This document shows, piece by piece, positions 7,732-56,163 of a DNA stretch of 64,000 nucleotides. The stretch lies in contig NC_014935.1 in the NCBI RefSeq assembly GCF_000186245.1, forward strand, positions 434,001 through 498,000. Direction: 5' to 3'. The position numbers and the translations under genes are program-made. The stretch is from Nitratifractor salsuginis DSM 16511 (GTDB taxonomy: Bacteria; Campylobacterota; Campylobacteria; Campylobacterales; Sulfurovaceae). Position 1 is the stretch's first letter. The number at the start of each line of letters is the position of its first letter. The notes under the pieces were generated by a model, which had not been told where the DNA came from, ran no database searches, and saw only the letters and a program-made list of their open reading frames with translations.

Positions 7732-7866
7732 GAGTAACTAGTAATGGGGAGGATTGGTGCCCTGTTGAGTTGTCGATATAATTTGCTCTGTGAATACCGG
7801 AGAGCCGGTGGAATTTTACAAAAAGGAGAATTTCTAGTTACTAGTTACTAGTCTCTTTCTAGTTAT
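7732..7866. repeat. GTAACTA heptads, inverted on both sides of a promoter segment
   Basis: Just after the nhaD stop there is GTAACTAGTAA (7734-7744), and at 7834-7866 its reverse complement appears as repeated CTAGTTA units. Between them lie a TATAAT hexamer (7777-7782), a small hairpin ACCGG/CCGGT and a good AAAAAGGAG sequence. The heptads on either side could pair. The same unit recurs at 18354-18413, 49788-50027 and 52852-52905. Confidence 0.7.
7777..7782 (+). promoter_or_regulatory. Possible -10 element upstream of guaA
   Basis: TATAAT lies about 100 bases before the guaA start inside the repeat-flanked interval. No convincing -35 hexamer at 16-18 bases is seen, so only the -10 is proposed. 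Confidence 0.4.
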
Positions 7867-7880
7867 TCAAAAGGATAAAT

Positions 7881-9425
7881 GTGAGAAAAGAAGTACCGAT
7901 CGTCGTTTTGGATTTTGGTTCGCAATATACGCAGTTGATCGCCCGTAAGCTTCGGGAGAGCGGTGTCTATACTGAAGTGGTCCCCTACCGGGAAGACCTG
8001 GAGGCGATCAAAGCCCGCAAACCCAAGGGAATCATTCTCTCCGGGGGGCCCGCGTCGGTCTATGCCGAAGATGCCTACCATCCCGATGAGGGGATTTGGG
8101 ATCTGGGGCTGCCGATTTTGGGGATCTGCTACGGGATGCAGCTCATCGCCCAACACTTCGGCGGAGAAGTGGTCCCGGCGGACCACCACGAATACGGCAA
8201 GGCGCGGCTGCATATCACCAAGCCCGATTCCCCGATCTTCAAAGATGTGCCCGACAACAGCATCGTCTGGATGAGCCACGGCGACCGGGTGGAGAAGCTC
8301 CCCGAGGGCTTCGAGACCATCGCCGTCAGTGACAATTCCCCCCATGCGGCGATCGCCGACGAGAACCGTCAAATCTACGCCTTTCAGTTTCACCCCGAAG
8401 TACACCACTCCGTCGAAGGGGTGAAGATGCTCAAAAACTTCGCCAAATATATCTGCGGAGCTGAAAGCACCTGGAATATGGGCTCCTTCGCCAAAGAGAA
8501 GATCGAAGAGATCCGCAAGCAGGTGGGGGATAAAAAGGTACTCTGCGGCGTCAGCGGCGGGGTGGACAGCTCCGTCGTCGCCGCACTGCTCCACGAAGCG
8601 ATCGGCGATCAGCTCATTGCGGTCTTCGTCGATACCGGCTTGCTGCGCAAGAATGAGGCGCAGCAGGTCCAGGATATGTTCAAGCAGTTGGGGATCGACC
8701 TGATTACCGTAGACGCTTCCGAGAAATTCCTCTCCCGCCTCAAAGGAGTGACCGATCCCGAGCGCAAGCGTAAGATTATCGGTGAAACTTTTATCGAAGT
8801 CTTCGACGAAGAGGCGAAAAAGCACGCCGACGAAGTGAGCTTCCTGGCCCAGGGGACCCTCTACACGGACGTCATCGAATCGGTCAGCGTCAAAGGCCCC
8901 TCCAAAACCATCAAATCCCACCACAACGTCGGCGGTCTGCCCGAGTGGATGACCTTCGAGCTGGTCGAACCCCTGCGGGAGATTTTCAAGGACGAAGTGC
9001 GCAAACTGGGCCTGGAGCTCGGCCTGCCCAAACATATGATCGGCCGCCATCCCTTCCCCGGGCCCGGTCTGGCGATCCGCGTGATGGGCGAAGTCAACGA
9101 AGAGGCACTGCGCCTGCTCCGTGACAGCGACGAGATCATGCAGGAGGAGCTCCGCGCCAGCGGTTATTACGATAAGGTTTGGCAAGCCTTTACCGTGCTG
9201 CTCAACGTCAGCAGTGTCGGCGTGATGGGGGACAACCGCACCTACGACAACACCGTTTGCGTGCGGATGGTGGAATCGGTCGACGGGATGACCGCCACTT
9301 TCGCCTATGTCCCCCACGACATTCTGGAGAACATCAGCCGCCGGATCATTAACGAGATCGACGGGATCAACCGGGTGGTGTATGATATCTCCTCCAAACC
9401 CCCCGCAACCATCGAATGGGAATAG
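7881..9425 (+). CDS. guaA: GMP synthase (glutamine-hydrolysing)
   Basis: Converts XMP to GMP using ATP and glutamine. The 514-residue protein has an N-terminal class I glutamine amidotransferase domain (nucleophile Cys83 in GICYGMQ; HPEVHHS for the catalytic His/Glu), then an ATP pyrophosphatase domain with the P-loop SGGVDSSV, and the C-terminal dimerisation domain ending PPATIEWE, as in the family. Start is GTG with AAAGGAT upstream; the nearby ATG is out of frame. Flanked upstream by GTAACTA heptads and downstream by the GAATGAG composite element, so it is probably a single-gene unit. Confidence 0.97.
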
Positions 9426-9551
9426 CCTGCCTCTTTTGGGCATCTTCGAGCGGAAGCCTCCCTCTACGCTCAGTCACTTACTTCGTGTAAGCTCCTTCGC
9501 TCCGAGGGAGCCCTCCACTCAAATCTGCTCCAAAATAGTTTGGCTATTATT
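9426..9551 (+). other. Non-coding spacer after guaA
   Basis: No gene is seen between guaA and dgkA (9426-9739). This first part has several degenerate short repeats of the type CTTCGCTC/CTTCGTG and no clear promoter; the rest is taken up by the composite heptad element described separately. Confidence 0.5.
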
Positions 9552-9722
9552 GAATGAGGAATGAGGAGTGAGGAATGAAGAATTGAGGTTTGCGTTGCTT
9601 TGCAACGCTTTTTTTGAAATTGTCGCTAAAGGCGACACCGCTCCTTAATAATCAATACCCATATAATAAAACTAATACTCTTGCGACGTGAGGGCCGGAG
9701 GTCCGTGCTTGCGACTTGCGAC
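9552..9722 (+). repeat. Composite heptad element, copy A (complete)
   Basis: In order: five seven-base units GAATGAG, GAATGAG, GAGTGAG, GAATGAA, GAATTGA (phase 9552, 9559, 9566, 9573, 9580); a perfect hairpin GCGTTGC-TTT-GCAACGC followed by seven T (9592-9615); a second hairpin TGTCGC-TAAAG-GCGACA (9621-9637); an AT-rich spacer; and a 42-base block of six heptads starting and ending with CTTGCGA (9680-9721). The dgkA ribosome site follows directly. Copy B after dgkA has the same order, which shows this is one element and not chance. Confidence 0.85.
9592..9615 (+). terminator. Hairpin plus T-run inside element A
   Basis: Seven perfect base pairs with a three-base loop followed by TTTTTTT, the form of an intrinsic terminator; it would end transcription from guaA. 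The same hairpin recurs in the other copies of the element. Confidence 0.75.
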
Positions 9723-9739
9723 TCAAAAAAGGAAAGCCT

Positions 9740-10108
9740 ATGCATAATAAACCCAAATTCCACATCATCAAAAACATCGGCTATGCCCTGGCGGGGATGC
9801 GCTATACCGTCACTCAGGAGAAGTCCTTTCGCACCCAGCTGGCGGTCATTGCGCTCATTGCCGTCGGGCTCTTCTTCGCTCCCATCTCAACGCTCTCCAA
9901 ATGGATCCTCTTCGCTTCGACCTGGCTGGTGCTGATCGCTGAAGCTTTCAACAGCGCCATCGAGCGGGTGGTGGACCTGGTGACTCAGGAGCATCACCCT
10001 CTGGCGGGGCAGGCGAAAGATATCGGAGCGTTTGGGGTCTTTTTGGCCTTCTGTCTGACGGCGATGATCTGGGGGATCGTGCTATATGGGGAGCTGGTGA
10101 AGAGTTAG
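9740..10108 (+). CDS. dgkA: Diacylglycerol kinase (DgkA family)
   Basis: A 122-residue inner-membrane enzyme that phosphorylates diacylglycerol to phosphatidate for lipid recycling. After an amphipathic start (HIIKNIGYALAGMRYTVTQEKSFR) there are three membrane segments; the second carries the family signature AEAFNSAIERVVDLV with the catalytic glutamate, and HHPLAGQAKDIGAFGVF follows. ATG 9740 has AAAGGAAAG upstream. The last residues and the TAG stop fall inside the first heptad (GAGTTAG) of the next composite element, so the repeat has become the end of the gene. Single-gene unit between two copies of the element. Confidence 0.92.
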   Translation: MHNKPKFHIIKNIGYALAGMRYTVTQEKSFRTQLAVIALIAVGLFFAPISTLSKWILFASTWLVLIAEAFNSAIERVVDLVTQEHHPLAGQAKDIGAFGVFLAFCLTAMIWGIVLYGELVKS

Positions 10109-10252
10109 GAGTTAGGAGTGAGGAGTTTCGGTAAGCGTTGCCTTGCAACGCCTTTTATCTGAAATTGTTGCCAGAGGCGACACCGTTCTCCGATAACCAC
10201 ATAATTATTTCTTGCGACGTGAGGGCCATAGGCCCGTGCTTGCGACTTGCGA
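10102..10252 (+). repeat. Composite heptad element, copy B (complete)
   Basis: Heptads GAGTTAG, GAGTTAG, GAGTGAG, GAGTTTC start at 10102 and include the dgkA stop codon. Then hairpin GCGTTGC-CTT-GCAACGC with CTTTT (10135-10155), second hairpin TGTTGC-CAGAG-GCGACA (10166-10182; one G-U pair replaces the pair in copy A), AT-rich spacer, and the CTTGCGA block at 10211-10252. The metY promoter follows. Confidence 0.85.
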
Positions 10253-10273
10253 TCCCTGATAGAACAAAACTGC

Positions 10274-10279
10274 TATAAT
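10274..10279 (+). promoter_or_regulatory. -10 element of metY
   Basis: TATAAT 42 bases before the metY start. The end of the CTTGCGA block (TTGCGA at 10247-10252) lies 21 bases upstream, too far for a normal -35. Confidence 0.5.
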
Positions 10280-10315
10280 CTTTTCCAATGAATCCTCATA
10301 ATCAAAGGACCGACG

Positions 10316-11581
10316 ATGCGAGAGAACACCCTGGCGATTCATGCCGGATACGACGGTAACGAGTTCGGAACGATGGCGGTGCCGATCTATCAGACGACTG
10401 CCTATGAGTTCCGGGATGCCGAGCATGCGGCGAATCTTTTTGAACTCAAAGAGCTGGGCAATATCTATACCCGCCTGATGAATCCCACCACCGACGTTTT
10501 CGAAAAACGTTTCGCCGCACTCGAAGGGGGAGCGGCGGCGGTGGCGACCGCCAGCGGGATGAGTGCCATCTTCTATGCCATCGCCAATGTCGCCGAAGCG
10601 GGGGACAACATCATCGTCGCCAAGCAGGTCTACGGCGGGACGACGACTCTGACGGGACACACGATCCGCCGTTTCGGGATCGAGGCACGCTATTTTGACG
10701 TGTACGAACCCGAAGAGCTCGAAGCGATGATCGACGAGCGGACCAAACTGATCCATTTCGAGAGCATCACCAATCCCAGTGTGGATGTAGCGGATATCGC
10801 GGAGATCGTCCGGATCGCCGATCGCCACGGTGTGCTTACCTGTACCGACAATACGGTGGCCACGCCGGTGATCTGCAAACCCATCGAACACGGCGTGGAT
10901 GTGGTGGTACACAGCGCCAGCAAATACACCACCGGCCAGGGATTGGCGATCGGAGGGATCGTCGTCGAACGGGAAGGGCTGGTGGAGAAGCTCAAGGGCA
11001 ATCAACGCTACTACCATTTCAACGAGCCCGATCCCAGCTATCACGGACTGGTCTATACCGATCTGCCCCTGCCTCCTTTTACCCTTCGCACACGCCTGGC
11101 GCTTCTGCGCGACCTGGGGGCGGCACCCAGCCCTTTCAATTCCTGGCTCTATATCCAGGGCCTGGAGACCCTGCCTTTGAGAATGCGACAACATTCGGAT
11201 TCGGCTCTCGCTATCGCCGAATTTCTCGAAGCCCATCCCAAGGTCAAAAAGGTCAACTATCCCGGCCTCAAAAGCGACCCCAATTACCCATTGGTTCAAA
11301 AATATTTCAAAAAAGGAATGGCCAGCGGGCTGCTGAGCTTTGAAGTGGAGAGCCGGGAAGAGGCGCAGCGGATTGCCGACAGCACGAAGCTCTTCAAGCT
11401 CGTGGTCAATATCGGCGACAGCAAATCGCTCATCACCCATCCCGCCAGCACGACCCATCAGCAGCTGAGCAAAGAAGAGCTTGAAGCCGCCGGAGTCCCC
11501 GAAGGGTTGATCCGTCTCAGTGTCGGTCTGGAAGATACGGAGGATCTGATCGAGGATCTGCGGCAGGCGCTTCAGAACTAG
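10316..11581 (+). CDS. metY: O-acetylhomoserine sulfhydrylase
   Basis: A PLP enzyme of the Cys/Met metabolism family that makes homocysteine from O-acetylhomoserine and sulfide. The 421-residue length is that of MetY rather than of the shorter cystathionine enzymes. Visible are VPIYQTTAYEFRDAEHAANLF, the PLP phosphate region (ATASGMSAIF), YGGTT, and the Schiff-base lysine in HSASKYTTGQG. Downstream metX makes its substrate and metH at 58099 uses its product, so the whole direct-sulfhydrylation route to methionine is in this window. The TAG stop lies in the heptad GAACTAG at the start of the next repeat element. Confidence 0.94.
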   Translation: MRENTLAIHAGYDGNEFGTMAVPIYQTTAYEFRDAEHAANLFELKELGNIYTRLMNPTTDVFEKRFAALEGGAAAVATASGMSAIFYAIANVAEAGDNIIVAKQVYGGTTTLTGHTIRRFGIEARYFDVYEPEELEAMIDERTKLIHFESITNPSVDVADIAEIVRIADRHGVLTCTDNTVATPVICKPIEHGVDVVVHSASKYTTGQGLAIGGIVVEREGLVEKLKGNQRYYHFNEPDPSYHGLVYTDLPLPPFTLRTRLALLRDLGAAPSPFNSWLYIQGLETLPLRMRQHSDSALAIAEFLEAHPKVKKVNYPGLKSDPNYPLVQKYFKKGMASGLLSFEVESREEAQRIADSTKLFKLVVNIGDSKSLITHPASTTHQQLSKEELEAAGVPEGLIRLSVGLEDTEDLIEDLRQALQN

Positions 11582-11660
11582 GAACGAGGAATGAGGAATG
11601 AGGAATTATGGTTGGCGTTGCGTGGCAACGCTTTTTTTGAATTGTCGCCTAAAAGCGACA
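11575..11660 (+). repeat. Composite heptad element, copy C (lacks the CTTGCGA block)
   Basis: Heptads GAACTAG (holding the metY stop), GAACGAG, GAATGAG, GAATGAG, GAATTAT; hairpin GCGTTGC-GTG-GCAACGC with seven T (11615-11638); second hairpin TGTCGC-CTAAAA-GCGACA (11643-11660). The AT-rich spacer CAATAACCAATA follows but the 42-base CTTGCGA block is absent. The T-run hairpin would end metY transcription. Confidence 0.85.
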
Positions 11661-11747
11661 TCACTCCCAATAACCAATAGACAAATACACCAATACACAA
11701 TAATCTTTTTACGATAAAATAGCGCCAAACTATCCGACAGGCTGCCG

Positions 11748-12854
11748 ATGAAGATCGAGACCCATACTACCCATTTCACTTCACCGCTTTATCTGGAGAG
11801 CGGGCGAATCCTGGAACCTTATGAAATTCGCTACGAAACTTATGGGGAACTCAACGAAGCCAAAGACAATGTGATCCTTGTCTGCCACGCCCTCAGCGGC
11901 TCCCATCACGCGGCGGGGCTTTATGAGGGGGAGCGCAAACCGGGCTGGTGGGATGCGCTGATCGGCCCCGGCAAGGGGATCGATACCGACCGCTACTTCG
12001 TCGTCTGCACCAATGTCATCGGTTCCTGTTTCGGTTCTACGGGCCCGATGAGTCCCCAATACCCTTCCGAGGAACCCTACCGCCTCAAATTTCCGGTTGT
12101 GACGATCAAAGATATGATCCGAGCCCAGCGCCAGCTTCTGAGCCATCTGGGGATCCACCATGTCAAAGCGATCGTCGGAGGCTCGATGGGTGGGATGCAG
12201 GCGTTGCAATTCGCTGTGGATTATCCCGGCTTTGCCGACCATATCATTCCGTTGGCTACGACCTACGCCACTCGCCCCTGGGTCATCGCCTTCAACAAGG
12301 TCGCGGTAGAGGCGATCCGCAGAGATCCCCGCTTCGACAACGGCAACTACGCCCCCGACGCTTTCAAAGAACACGGCTGCGACGGGCTGGCCGTGGGACG
12401 CATCGCCGGGCACATCTCCTATCTCAGTCCCCAGTCGATGGATCGGAAATTCGGGCGCAACTATGTCGCTACCGACGGCCTCTTCGAACTTTTCGGCCGT
12501 TATGAAGTGGAGCGCTATATGGAGTACAACACCGCCAACTTCTCCCGGATCTTCGATCCGCTCAGCTATCTCTACATCGTCAAGGCGATCAACACCTTCA
12601 ACCTCTCCCGGGGTTACGATTCCCTCCACGATGCTGTGAGCCGGATCCGTGCCCAGGTGCACCTGATCAGCTTCGCGGGGGATTACCTCTTCTTTCCGGA
12701 GGAGATGGAACACCTCGCTAAAATGTTGCGACGTAACGGCCAGGCCCACAGTTATCACGAGATCGAGAGTGATTACGGGCACGACGCCTTTTTGGTGGAA
12801 GTGGATAAGTTCGATTTCATTATCCGGGAAATTCTGGAAGAGGAGTGTGGATGA
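11748..12854 (+). CDS. metX: Homoserine O-acetyltransferase
   Basis: An alpha/beta hydrolase that transfers acetyl from acetyl-CoA to homoserine. The 368-residue protein has the family N-terminus (LESGRILEPYEIRYETYGELN), the HALSGSHHAAG oxyanion region, the nucleophile elbow GGSMGGMQ, and the C-terminal Asp and His (FAGDYLFFP; DYGHDAFLVE). It supplies MetY just upstream. First gene of a tight set: its stop overlaps the xseB ATG as ATGA. A TTACGATAAAAT sequence about 40 bases upstream may hold the promoter. Confidence 0.95.
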   Translation: MKIETHTTHFTSPLYLESGRILEPYEIRYETYGELNEAKDNVILVCHALSGSHHAAGLYEGERKPGWWDALIGPGKGIDTDRYFVVCTNVIGSCFGSTGPMSPQYPSEEPYRLKFPVVTIKDMIRAQRQLLSHLGIHHVKAIVGGSMGGMQALQFAVDYPGFADHIIPLATTYATRPWVIAFNKVAVEAIRRDPRFDNGNYAPDAFKEHGCDGLAVGRIAGHISYLSPQSMDRKFGRNYVATDGLFELFGRYEVERYMEYNTANFSRIFDPLSYLYIVKAINTFNLSRGYDSLHDAVSRIRAQVHLISFAGDYLFFPEEMEHLAKMLRRNGQAHSYHEIESDYGHDAFLVEVDKFDFIIREILEEECG

Positions 12855-13863: not shown

Positions 13864-14546
13864 GGTCGGAGGAGTATTTCCATCGGCAGATTCAGCTCTG
13901 GGGGGAGGAAGCCCAGGAGCGGCTCGCTGCCAAGCGGATCGTCATCATCGGATGCGGAGGGCTCGGCTCGACGCTCGCTCTGGCTCTGGGGTGCAGCGGC
14001 ATCGGAGAGATTCACCTGGTGGATTTCGATGAGGTCTCTTTGCACAATATCCACCGGCAGATCGTTTTCACTCTGGAGGATCAGGGAGGAAACAAAGCGG
14101 AGGTGAGCGCCGAGCTGCTCCGAAAGAAAAATCCCTTCGTGAAGGTCCAGGCCCACCCCTGCGACTTCGATTCCTTCGCAAAGAGCAATACTCTTGCCTT
14201 CGATCTGATCCTCGACGCGACAGACAACCTCCCCGTCCGCTCCAAAATCGATGCCTGGGCCAAAAGCTGCCGCATCCCCTGGGTCTATGCCAGTGTGGAA
14301 GCCTTCAACGGGCAAGTCTGCTTTTTTGACCGGGCCGATTTCGGGGTCTTCGCCGTCAGTGACCATACCCCCGCAGGCATCGCCGCCCCGATCGTGATGC
14401 AGGTCGGCTCCTTCCAGGCCAATCTGGCACTGCGCTATCTCGCGGGACTTCCCATTCGCAAAGATCAGCTCCACTATCTCTATTATGACGAAGAGGGGGA
14501 GTTGGTGCTCAAAAAGTTCAAACTACCGGTTGTGAGTGAAGAGTGA
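13860..14546 (+). CDS. ThiF/MoeB/HesA-family adenylyltransferase
   Basis: A 228-residue E1-like enzyme. Such proteins adenylate the C-terminus of ubiquitin-like sulfur carriers (ThiS, MoaD). It has the nucleotide-binding GCGGLGS at 31-37, DFDEVSLHNIHRQ for ATP contacts, and LDATDNLPVR. It lacks CxxC pairs for zinc and has no cysteine in the region where ThiF/MoeB carry the late catalytic cysteine, so the precise partner is unclear; I do not assign thiF or moeB. Start ATG 13860 overlaps the nitrilase-like stop. The last four residues and the TGA stop lie in heptads of the next repeat element. Confidence 0.82.
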   Translation: MRSEEYFHRQIQLWGEEAQERLAAKRIVIIGCGGLGSTLALALGCSGIGEIHLVDFDEVSLHNIHRQIVFTLEDQGGNKAEVSAELLRKKNPFVKVQAHPCDFDSFAKSNTLAFDLILDATDNLPVRSKIDAWAKSCRIPWVYASVEAFNGQVCFFDRADFGVFAVSDHTPAGIAAPIVMQVGSFQANLALRYLAGLPIRKDQLHYLYYDEEGELVLKKFKLPVVSEE

Positions 14547-14612
14547 GGAATTAGAAATTAGAAATGAGTAATGAGAAATTGCGGTTGGCATTGTTTTGCA
14601 ATGCCTTTTTTT
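14534..14612 (+). repeat. Composite heptad element, copy D (5' part only)
   Basis: Seven units from 14534: GAGTGAA, GAGTGAG (with the thiF-like stop), GAATTAG, AAATTAG, AAATGAG, TAATGAG, AAATTGC; then hairpin GGCATTG-TTTTG-CAATGCC with seven T (14587-14612). Compared with copies A-C, the G-C pair at position 3 of the stem is replaced by A-U on both arms, a compensatory change. Confidence 0.8.
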
Positions 14613-14659: not shown

Positions 14660-14736
14660 ACTACCCACTACCCACTACCCACTACCCACTACCCACTACC
14701 CACTACCCACTACCCACTACCCACTACCCACTACCC
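14660..14736. repeat. Eleven perfect tandem copies of ACTACCC
   Basis: Eleven unbroken seven-base units, 77 bases in all, followed by a partial unit. The array ends 16 bases before the -10 element of the next lipoprotein gene, so the -35 region lies in or beside the repeat. Perfect short tandem repeats tend to change copy number by slippage; seven is not a multiple of three, but here the array is outside coding sequence. Confidence 0.95.
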
Positions 14737-14752
14737 ACTCTTTTCTTCGTGT

Positions 14753-17568: not shown

Positions 17569-18359
17569 TGAAGCGGATCGTCATTAAAGTGGGTTCGCAC
17601 GTCTTGACCGAAGAGGGAGAGATCGCCCTGGAACGTATGCGTGCACTGGTAGACCTTATCGCGGATCTGATCCGCGGGGGCAGGGAGGTGATCCTCGTCA
17701 GTTCGGGAGCCGTGGCGGCGGGATATACCCAGCTGAGGCTCGATCGCTCCGATGTGGCGCAGAAACAGGCCTTGGCGGCGATCGGTCAGCCCTATCTCCT
17801 GAAGCTCTATCAGAGCAAGTTCGCCCACCATGGTATTTTGAGTGCCCAGCTGCTCCTCAGCGCCGACGATTTCGACTCCCGCCGTCGAACCCGTCACGCA
17901 CGCAACGCTGTCGAGGAGCTCTTGAAGCATCGGGTCGTCCCGATCGTCAATGAAAACGATGTGGTCGCGACCGAAGAGTTGGTTTTCGGTGACAATGACC
18001 GTCTCAGTGCCCATGTGGCCCACTATTTCGATGCGGACCTTTTGGTGATCCTCTCCGACATCGACGGCTATTACGACAAAGATCCCCATCGCTACCCCGA
18101 TGCCCGGCTGCGCAAGGTGGTCTGTGCACTCGATGCGAAGGAGTTGGAAGCCGAATGCACTCCCCATAACGCCTTCGCCACCGGCGGGATCGTAACGAAG
18201 CTGCAGGCGGCGGATTTTCTTCTCAAACGGGGAGGGCGAATGTTCCTCGCCAGCGGATTCGATCTCGCTGATGTGCAAAGCCTGCTCCTGGAAGGGGTGC
18301 ACCGCGGGGGGACGCTTTTTGAAAGTTCCGACGCTCGACGGGGTGAAGAGGACGAGTAA
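17568..18359 (+). CDS. proB: Glutamate 5-kinase, short form without PUA domain
   Basis: First enzyme of proline synthesis, phosphorylating glutamate. The 263 residues form only the amino-acid kinase domain: [51 protein letters not shown]-like [15 protein letters not shown], and [12 protein letters not shown]. The C-terminal PUA domain of the E. coli enzyme (367 aa) is absent, a form found in some bacteria. Start overlaps the obgE stop. The TAA stop lies in the heptad GAGTAAC that begins the next repeat region. proA is not in the window. Confidence 0.92.
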
Positions 18360-18513
18360 CTGGAAACTAATAACTAGTAACTAGTAATTAGTAACCGAGT
18401 AATTAGTAACCGAATAATTGAGAATGGGTAAATTGATGTCGTTTTTGCGGCAATTTCCAATGACTAAAATTCTTGCGACGTGAGGGCCGAAGGCCCGTGC
18501 TTGCGACTTGCGA
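18354..18513 (+). repeat. Composite heptad element, copy with GTAACTA-type heptads
   Basis: Heptads GAGTAAC (with the proB stop), TGGAAAC, TAATAAC, TAGTAAC, TAGTAAT, TAGTAAC and degenerate units to about 18413; a hairpin TGTCG-TTTTTG-CGGCA near 18437 in the place of the second hairpin of copies A-C; then the 42-base CTTGCGA block at 18472-18513. The fmt ribosome site follows. It combines the GTAACTA and CTTGCGA types in one element. Confidence 0.75.
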
Positions 18514-51722: not shown

Positions 51723-51746
51723 CGTCGTCGCTTTTTGCAACGACGA

Positions 51747-51875
51747 ATGAGGAATGAGGAATGAGGAACTACGGTAAGCGCCGTGAGACGGCGCCTTCTT
51801 CCAAAAAGAAAGACTTTGCAGAGCAAAGTCATCCTGAACTCCTCACTCCTCACTCCTCACTCCTCACTCACAAAT
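51747..51875. repeat. Composite heptad element with inverted heptad ends
   Basis: GAATGAG x3 and GAACTAC (51746-51773); hairpin GCGCCGT-GAG-ACGGCGC (51778-51794) followed by CTTCTTCC; a second hairpin GACTTTGC-AGA-GCAAAGTC (51812-51830); then TCCTCAC x4 (51838-51865), which is the reverse complement of GTGAGGA. The two heptad arrays face each other, so the element could fold back on itself. It overlaps the 5' end of the ppx/gppA reading frame. Confidence 0.8.
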
Positions 51876-55955: not shown

Positions 55956-56163
55956 GGTCATTGCTCATTGGTCATTGGTCATTGGGGAGCGATGGCGGCA
56001 CATTTTTTTTGACATTAGACGTTTGACATTAGACGTTTGTATTTTGGGTGAGAAAGTTTTGGGTCTATATCTTCCTATACTCTCGACCTCTCAGCCTCCC
56101 ATCTATAAAAAAGAAAGCGTTGCCACGCAACGCATACCACAATTTCTCATTCCATCCGCTCGC
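55956..56163. repeat. Mixed heptad region with a reversed hairpin element
   Basis: GGTCATT, GCTCATT, GGTCATT, GGTCATT (55956-55983); two copies of the 14-base unit GACATTAGACGTTT (56011-56038), itself two heptads; and, in reverse orientation, the hairpin GCGTTGC-CAC-GCAACGC (56117-56133) followed by ACCACAATTTCTCATTCC, the reverse complement of the heptad start of the GAATGAG element. The lpxD start lies 38 bases further on. Confidence 0.75.

Follow-up and report, generated by a model that had tools for sequence, protein, structure and literature searches.

A dispersed heptad-hairpin repeat module at gene boundaries of Nitratifractor salsuginis and related genomes

Heptamer repeats have been noted in bacterial genomes for decades, and to our knowledge they have no explanation; the current guesses are polymerase slippage and G-quadruplexes. 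The STRR heptamers of cyanobacteria, attributed to Mazel (1990), are reportedly tandem 7-mers dispersed between genes. One of the units found here in the vent bacterium Nitratifractor salsuginis, AATGACC, is presumably the STRR unit TTGGTCA, reverse-complemented and rotated. Like the STRR and the long simple sequence repeats (Mrazek 2007, cited in PMC4679880), the repeats of N. salsuginis are tandem 7-mers scattered between genes. Unlike them, they are parts of composites with hairpins, and their other units are unrelated. The TAACTGA repeats of Beggiatoaceae, Cyanobacteria and Bacteroidetes, discussed in terms of stop codons in all frames and of slippage (PMC4679880), are also intergenic 7-mers close to start or stop codons, with a patchy distribution, marine sulfur oxidisers among the hosts and no known mechanism. 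However, they consist of one unit, mostly read toward start codons and have no particular predicted RNA structure.

The GGGAATC repeats of Xanthomonas and the GGGGAYT repeats of Nostoc PCC 7120, as published (PMC4692102), mostly have four units and are mostly intergenic. In the 50 nt that follow a stop codon their G-rich strand is the coding one, and in the 50 nt that precede a start codon it is the non-coding one. The mean distances to the ORFs are 28 and 160 nt, convergent pairs occur, and few repeats lie in divergent gaps. The slots are common to species and their sequence is variable. The repeats described here share with them the 7-nt unit, the four-unit mode, the intergenic location, the outward polarity near an ORF, the convergent pairs, the smaller number of arrays in divergent gaps and the shared slots with variable sequence (PMC4692102). 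However, most units here have no G-triplet, many unit types coexist, and a conserved hairpin, a T-run and locus-specific boundary palindromes are attached, which the description drawn on here does not mention. Lacking a G-triplet, most units do not fit the proposed quadruplex. An earlier note on this DNA knew of no description of such repeats from Campylobacterota, and none was found in the literature; however, the gene-edge polarity itself is published for Xanthomonas and Nostoc (PMC4692102). The REP/BIME elements with their GTAG and CGTC palindromes (PMC3733652) are likewise high-copy short intergenic hairpins in both orientations and in mosaic arrangement. However, neither their tag nor a link to RAYT was seen here, and heptad arrays lie outside the REP/BIME definition.

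The window, a stretch of 64,000 nucleotides (positions 434001-498000 of C1 in G000, the closed N. salsuginis genome of 2,101,285 bp), contains two full copies flanking dgkA, essentially as first described but with small coordinate shifts. In the upstream copy, on the forward strand like the downstream one, a module at 9552-9616 consists of heptads (9552-9583), a linker, a hairpin (9592-9608) and a T-run, and is matched by a covariance model at genome positions 443552-443616 (E 2.4e-17). It is followed by a TGTCGC/GCGACA hairpin (9621-9637) that folds from the sequence, and by a CTTGCGA block with an inner hairpin (9680-9721, model match 443680-443721). The downstream module (10095-10159, match 444095-444159; heptads 10102-10126, GCGTTGC hairpin 10135-10151) overlaps the stop codon of dgkA. 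The next elements are a TGTTGC/GCGACA hairpin (10166-10182) and a second CTTGCGA block (10211-10252, match 444211-444252). No Rfam match at E<=1 was found in the region 9300-11800.

The partial copies listed earlier, at 11575-11660, 14534-14612, 18354-18513, 51745-51869 and, reversed, 56117-56133, all exist. On the forward strand, they comprise a module after a metY-like gene (11575-11639, match 445575-445639) with a TGTCGC/GCGACA hairpin (11643-11660), a module at 14548-14612 (match 448548-448612) with heptads from 14534, and AACTAGT heptads (18365-18394) with a CTTGCGA block (18472-18513, match 452472-452513). GGAATGA heptads on the forward strand (51745-51768) form the left edge of a gap, and GGAGTGA heptads on the reverse strand (51838-51869) form its right edge, facing the opposite way. 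The module hairpin at 56117-56133 is on the reverse strand. However, the earlier list missed further arrays of the window, such as (ACTACCC)11 at 14660-14739, which is C-rich on the forward strand, so that its G-rich reverse strand points outward from the following gene. This array is perfect, far longer than the usual four units, and absent from the orthologous gap of the congener G011. CTAGTTA heptads on the reverse strand at 7834-7852 have CTAGTTA heptads at the orthologous position in the congeners G001 and G002.

Arrays were collected from 864 kb of the N. salsuginis genome, from parts of several congeners and from one other family member, with Markov-1 shuffled sequences as controls. Intergenic DNA of the 864-kb sample contains 160 arrays of period 7 (0.6 in shuffled sequence) and 25 of period 8 (0.4 shuffled), and no more than two of any other period from 2 to 6 and from 9 to 12. 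When arrays were found regardless of genes, 137 of 155 fell in gaps, which make up 15% of the sample. Genes were called by a simple ORF and hexamer script, and therefore their boundaries carry some error. There are about ten unit types, the commonest being GGAATGA, GGATTTT, AACTAGT, GGAGTGA, AATGACC and GGAGAAT, and an 8-mer unit, CCGAGTAA, occurs beside the 7-mers. G-triplets are confined to rare unit types; most units are of the GGAATGA, GGATTTT and AACTAGT type. Four units is the mode of array length (89 of 176 arrays in N. salsuginis). Stop codons in all frames were considered as the reason for the choice of units and rejected, as GGATTTT and others carry none.

Alignment of 52 modules on their hairpin revealed a constant order: about four heptads, a linker close to AATTTTGGTAT, the hairpin GCGTTGC-NNN-GCAACGC and a T-run. 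All heptads share one register relative to the hairpin, though the units differ: GAATGAG, AAAATAG, AAACTAG, TAACTAG, TGGTGAA and GGATTTT all fit one frame. The units look like the products of a single ancestral array that drifted and was evened out within each copy. In the 7-bp hairpin stem, 99.5% of cells are paired, a proportion biased by the requirement of at least six of seven pairs for entry into the alignment, and there are 16 double changes, which are less affected by this selection. Thus the stem covaries. No GTAG or CGTC tag is conserved at the hairpin foot in the aligned modules. As the copies share a module of 65 nt, common descent is needed, not repeated origin.

The CTTGCGA block is 42 bases long, exactly six heptads. 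Its inner hairpin also covaries: one pair is GC in 17 cases and CG in 15, and 99.4% of cells are paired. The earlier note had treated heptads, hairpins and this block as one composite element. With the 171-base copy as query, BLAST found 43 places in the genome. Only three of these align over the full length, and the remaining ones cover one part alone, the heptads with the hairpin or the CTTGCGA block; thus these are two separate repeats that share a few gaps. The single element dissolves into a mosaic of repeat families, with at least 108 modules, at least 62 CTTGCGA blocks and three full 171-base loci. The genome also contains seven equally scoring copies of an IS200-like tnpA with frames of 143 amino acids (C1 positions 844811, 1109962, 1266380, 1282679, 1401350, 1586903 and 1664761), two of which lie no more than some 400 bases from a CTTGCGA block. 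At C1 positions 1619811 and 1711089, two stretches around GCTTTGCCGAAGCATCGC show no difference in the letters compared; this duplication has nothing to do with the module.

The arrays are strongly polar. In the gaps of N. salsuginis, arrays in the left half are G-rich at 82:12 and those in the right half C-rich at 68:15. The corresponding ratios in congeners are 25:1 and 29:3 (G001), 18:2 and 20:2 (G010), and 6:2 and 11:0 (G011). Divergent gaps keep this polarity (8:1 and 11:2), and thus it tracks the gene edge, not transcription. Along the G-rich strand, the ORF behind the array is the nearer one in 147 of 170 cases, so that arrays point outward whichever way the genes run; the median distance is 21 nt to the ORF behind and 109 nt to the ORF ahead. 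The mean distances to the two ORFs, 28 and 160 nt in Xanthomonas and Nostoc (PMC4692102), compare with 39 and 120 nt here. Congeners have the same outward polarity (49/53, 37/41 and 18/21), and across these genomes the median distance to the ORF is 20-30 nt.

A GC-rich hairpin followed by a T-run has the anatomy of an intrinsic terminator, and a termination cassette had been suggested. The terminator-like, covarying hairpin with its T-run agrees with this suggestion. However, in co-directional gaps the hairpin and T-run are antisense in 15 cases and sense in 10. As antisense is as frequent as sense, termination of the upstream gene cannot be the general purpose of the module.

A palindrome with a score of at least 7 lies immediately beyond the heptads in 29 of 101 modules, compared with 1.8% in shuffled sequence and 2% further into the ORF; for scores of at least 9 the count is 17 of 101, compared with 0.2% shuffled. 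The boundary palindromes are locus-specific in sequence, and one arm is often coding, reaching into the ORF. A few of the 29 palindromes are in fact the conserved hairpin of a neighbouring copy. A separate count at called gene edges next to arrays agreed, with 9/189 against 2/189 shuffled and 5/751 elsewhere in N. salsuginis, 5/32 against 0 in G010, and 0/55 in G001. Some orthologous gaps, read by eye, keep the pairing despite a changed gene start, with GAGGAGCTTC/GAAGCTCCTG in N. salsuginis and AATAAAAGGA/TCCTTTTATT in G010.

Covariance models, with 150 candidates scored, give at least 108 modules and at least 62 CTTGCGA blocks in N. salsuginis. Eight congeners (G001, G002, G005-G007, G009-G011) have 53-140 modules and 1-26 CTTGCGA blocks, and the same models found neither repeat in the congeners G003, G004, G008 and G012. 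Of 150 genomes of the family, 60 have modules, and so do 8 of 11 genera; a single genus can span the range from no modules to at least 35 per genome, the upper counts being lower bounds as up to 35 candidates were scored. Among named genomes, the composite pattern was observed in MAGs labelled Campylobacteraceae, Nitratifractor and Sulfurovum. The four hits to this pattern outside Campylobacterota (two Vibrio, Pseudovibrio, Sphingomonadales) lack heptads and were dismissed as chance. The plasmid search gave no match to the repeat. The phage search gave a single match of 30 bases, 96.7% identical to the heptads, at 2597-2626 of record MT836789, which is a phage from human faeces.

The orthologous gaps of G010 and G011, whose proteins have a median identity of 77% to those of N. 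salsuginis, either contain arrays of equal polarity but different units or have no array. In G011, 57 nt follow dgkA before the next gene, and they retain the promoter-like AAAACTGCTATAAT found downstream of the element in N. salsuginis. Between G001 and G002 (median identity 90%), retained arrays have changed units, in one case three units against four, and at two slots with conserved flanks the cassette is wholly different. Such same-slot replacement could reflect insertion or recombination, that is, homologous gap exchange. No target-site duplication is evident in the G000/G010/G011 or G001/G002 gaps, these genomes being too distant for a clean empty site. A divergent gap of 272 bases with several arrays, at about 59 kb of contig C37 in G001 (entry G001_4 18121), looks nearly identical to its G002 counterpart despite a protein difference of about 10%, which may reflect recent transfer or shared contamination. 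With more than 100 copies in the genome, four congeners without any, and orthologous gaps holding other arrays or none, the earlier description as a dispersed repeat holds. The opposite possibility, ancestral intergenic sequence limited to the copies in the window and the same in the gaps of relatives, fails on the copy number and on the differences between gaps.

The copies are homologous, polar, fixed in register and covarying, patchily present in the family, and remodelled or replaced at their slots. We read them as a high-copy, single-ended repeat module at gene boundaries, for which we propose spread and an insulator role (probability about 0.6). A mobile origin had been suggested in the form of a non-autonomous element, and the dispersal is indeed clear. 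A classical MITE, with heptads as terminal inverted repeats and a transposase encoded elsewhere, would explain the facing arrays with inward polarity, which resemble inverted ends, the gaps that carry one unit on both sides (such as at 265221 in N. salsuginis), the replacement of whole cassettes at slots and the patchy distribution. However, a unit common to both arms of a gap is no more frequent than between shuffled arms (6 against 6.4 in N. salsuginis, and likewise in four congeners). Unmatched arms in five genomes argue both against a simple MITE and against a long stem between the arms, which we rejected since the units do not match. Single-sided modules are common, and none of the transposase families tested tracks the repeat, so we consider a MITE quite improbable. 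Among the congeners compared, several of which are incomplete MAGs, neither the Y1 transposase, reverse transcriptase, IS110 nor Ku follows the distribution of the repeat; a telomerase-like or retro origin by reverse transcriptase, IS110, and end joining by Ku were rejected for this reason. Least probable of all, and by far, is a REP-like element moved by a RAYT or IS200-type tyrosine transposase. It would account for more than 100 small intergenic hairpins in alternating orientation, and N. salsuginis does have a RAYT-length Y1 gene besides its equally scoring tnpA copies. However, the hairpin lacks a conserved tag, G005 and G010 (both at least 96% complete) have 63-132 modules and no Y1 gene, and G003 and G008 have a Y1 gene and no modules. 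Mobilisation by RAYT at present is thus mostly refuted.

It is also doubtful, if somewhat less so than a MITE, that the heptads and hairpins are functional RNA elements of 3' ends and 5' leaders that slippage has produced many times over and selection has preserved. The covarying hairpins and the T-run fit such a signal, as does a stem between coding start and leader that is kept despite synonymous changes in N. salsuginis and G010, at the slot with ATGAAGCTCC. The equal architecture in Xanthomonas and Nostoc (PMC4692102) fits it too. However, the hairpin is antisense at least as often as sense, the polarity extends to divergent gaps, four congeners have no modules, and the shared 65-nt module demands common descent of the copies.

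Under the preferred reading, a single-ended boundary module, the full form would run outward from a start or stop codon: a palindrome at the ORF boundary (in roughly one module in three), some four heptads with the G-rich strand outward, the linker, the hairpin and the T-run. One gap may hold none, one or two facing modules, and further repeats, the CTTGCGA block among them, may lie there too. The modules would have spread by copying into gene edges, being tolerated only there, and the arrays would then drift by 7-nt slippage within the fixed register. The evidence supports the spread; the copying step itself is a guess, and for it and the local palindrome we prefer DNA synthesis that folds back (snap-back) at the gene edge. 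A sense module would supply a predicted intrinsic terminator, and an antisense module could halt antisense transcripts. The net effect would be a putative outward-facing insulator of gene edges, predicted because the anatomy is terminator-like.

Heptamer repeats of at least three phyla may form one class of gene-edge repeats, united by a period of 7 nt, a length of four units, the outward polarity and a boundary palindrome, and not by sequence. Such a class, made by an undescribed fold-back copying that adds 7-nt units, is a speculative and rather unlikely proposal. Campylobacterota are a third phylum with gene-edge polarity and four-unit arrays, and the units here are mostly without G-tracts, which speaks against the quadruplex reading. 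With the register fixed by the hairpin, even arrays with drifted units can be aligned, and the locus-specific palindromes hint at a process that acts where genes begin or end.
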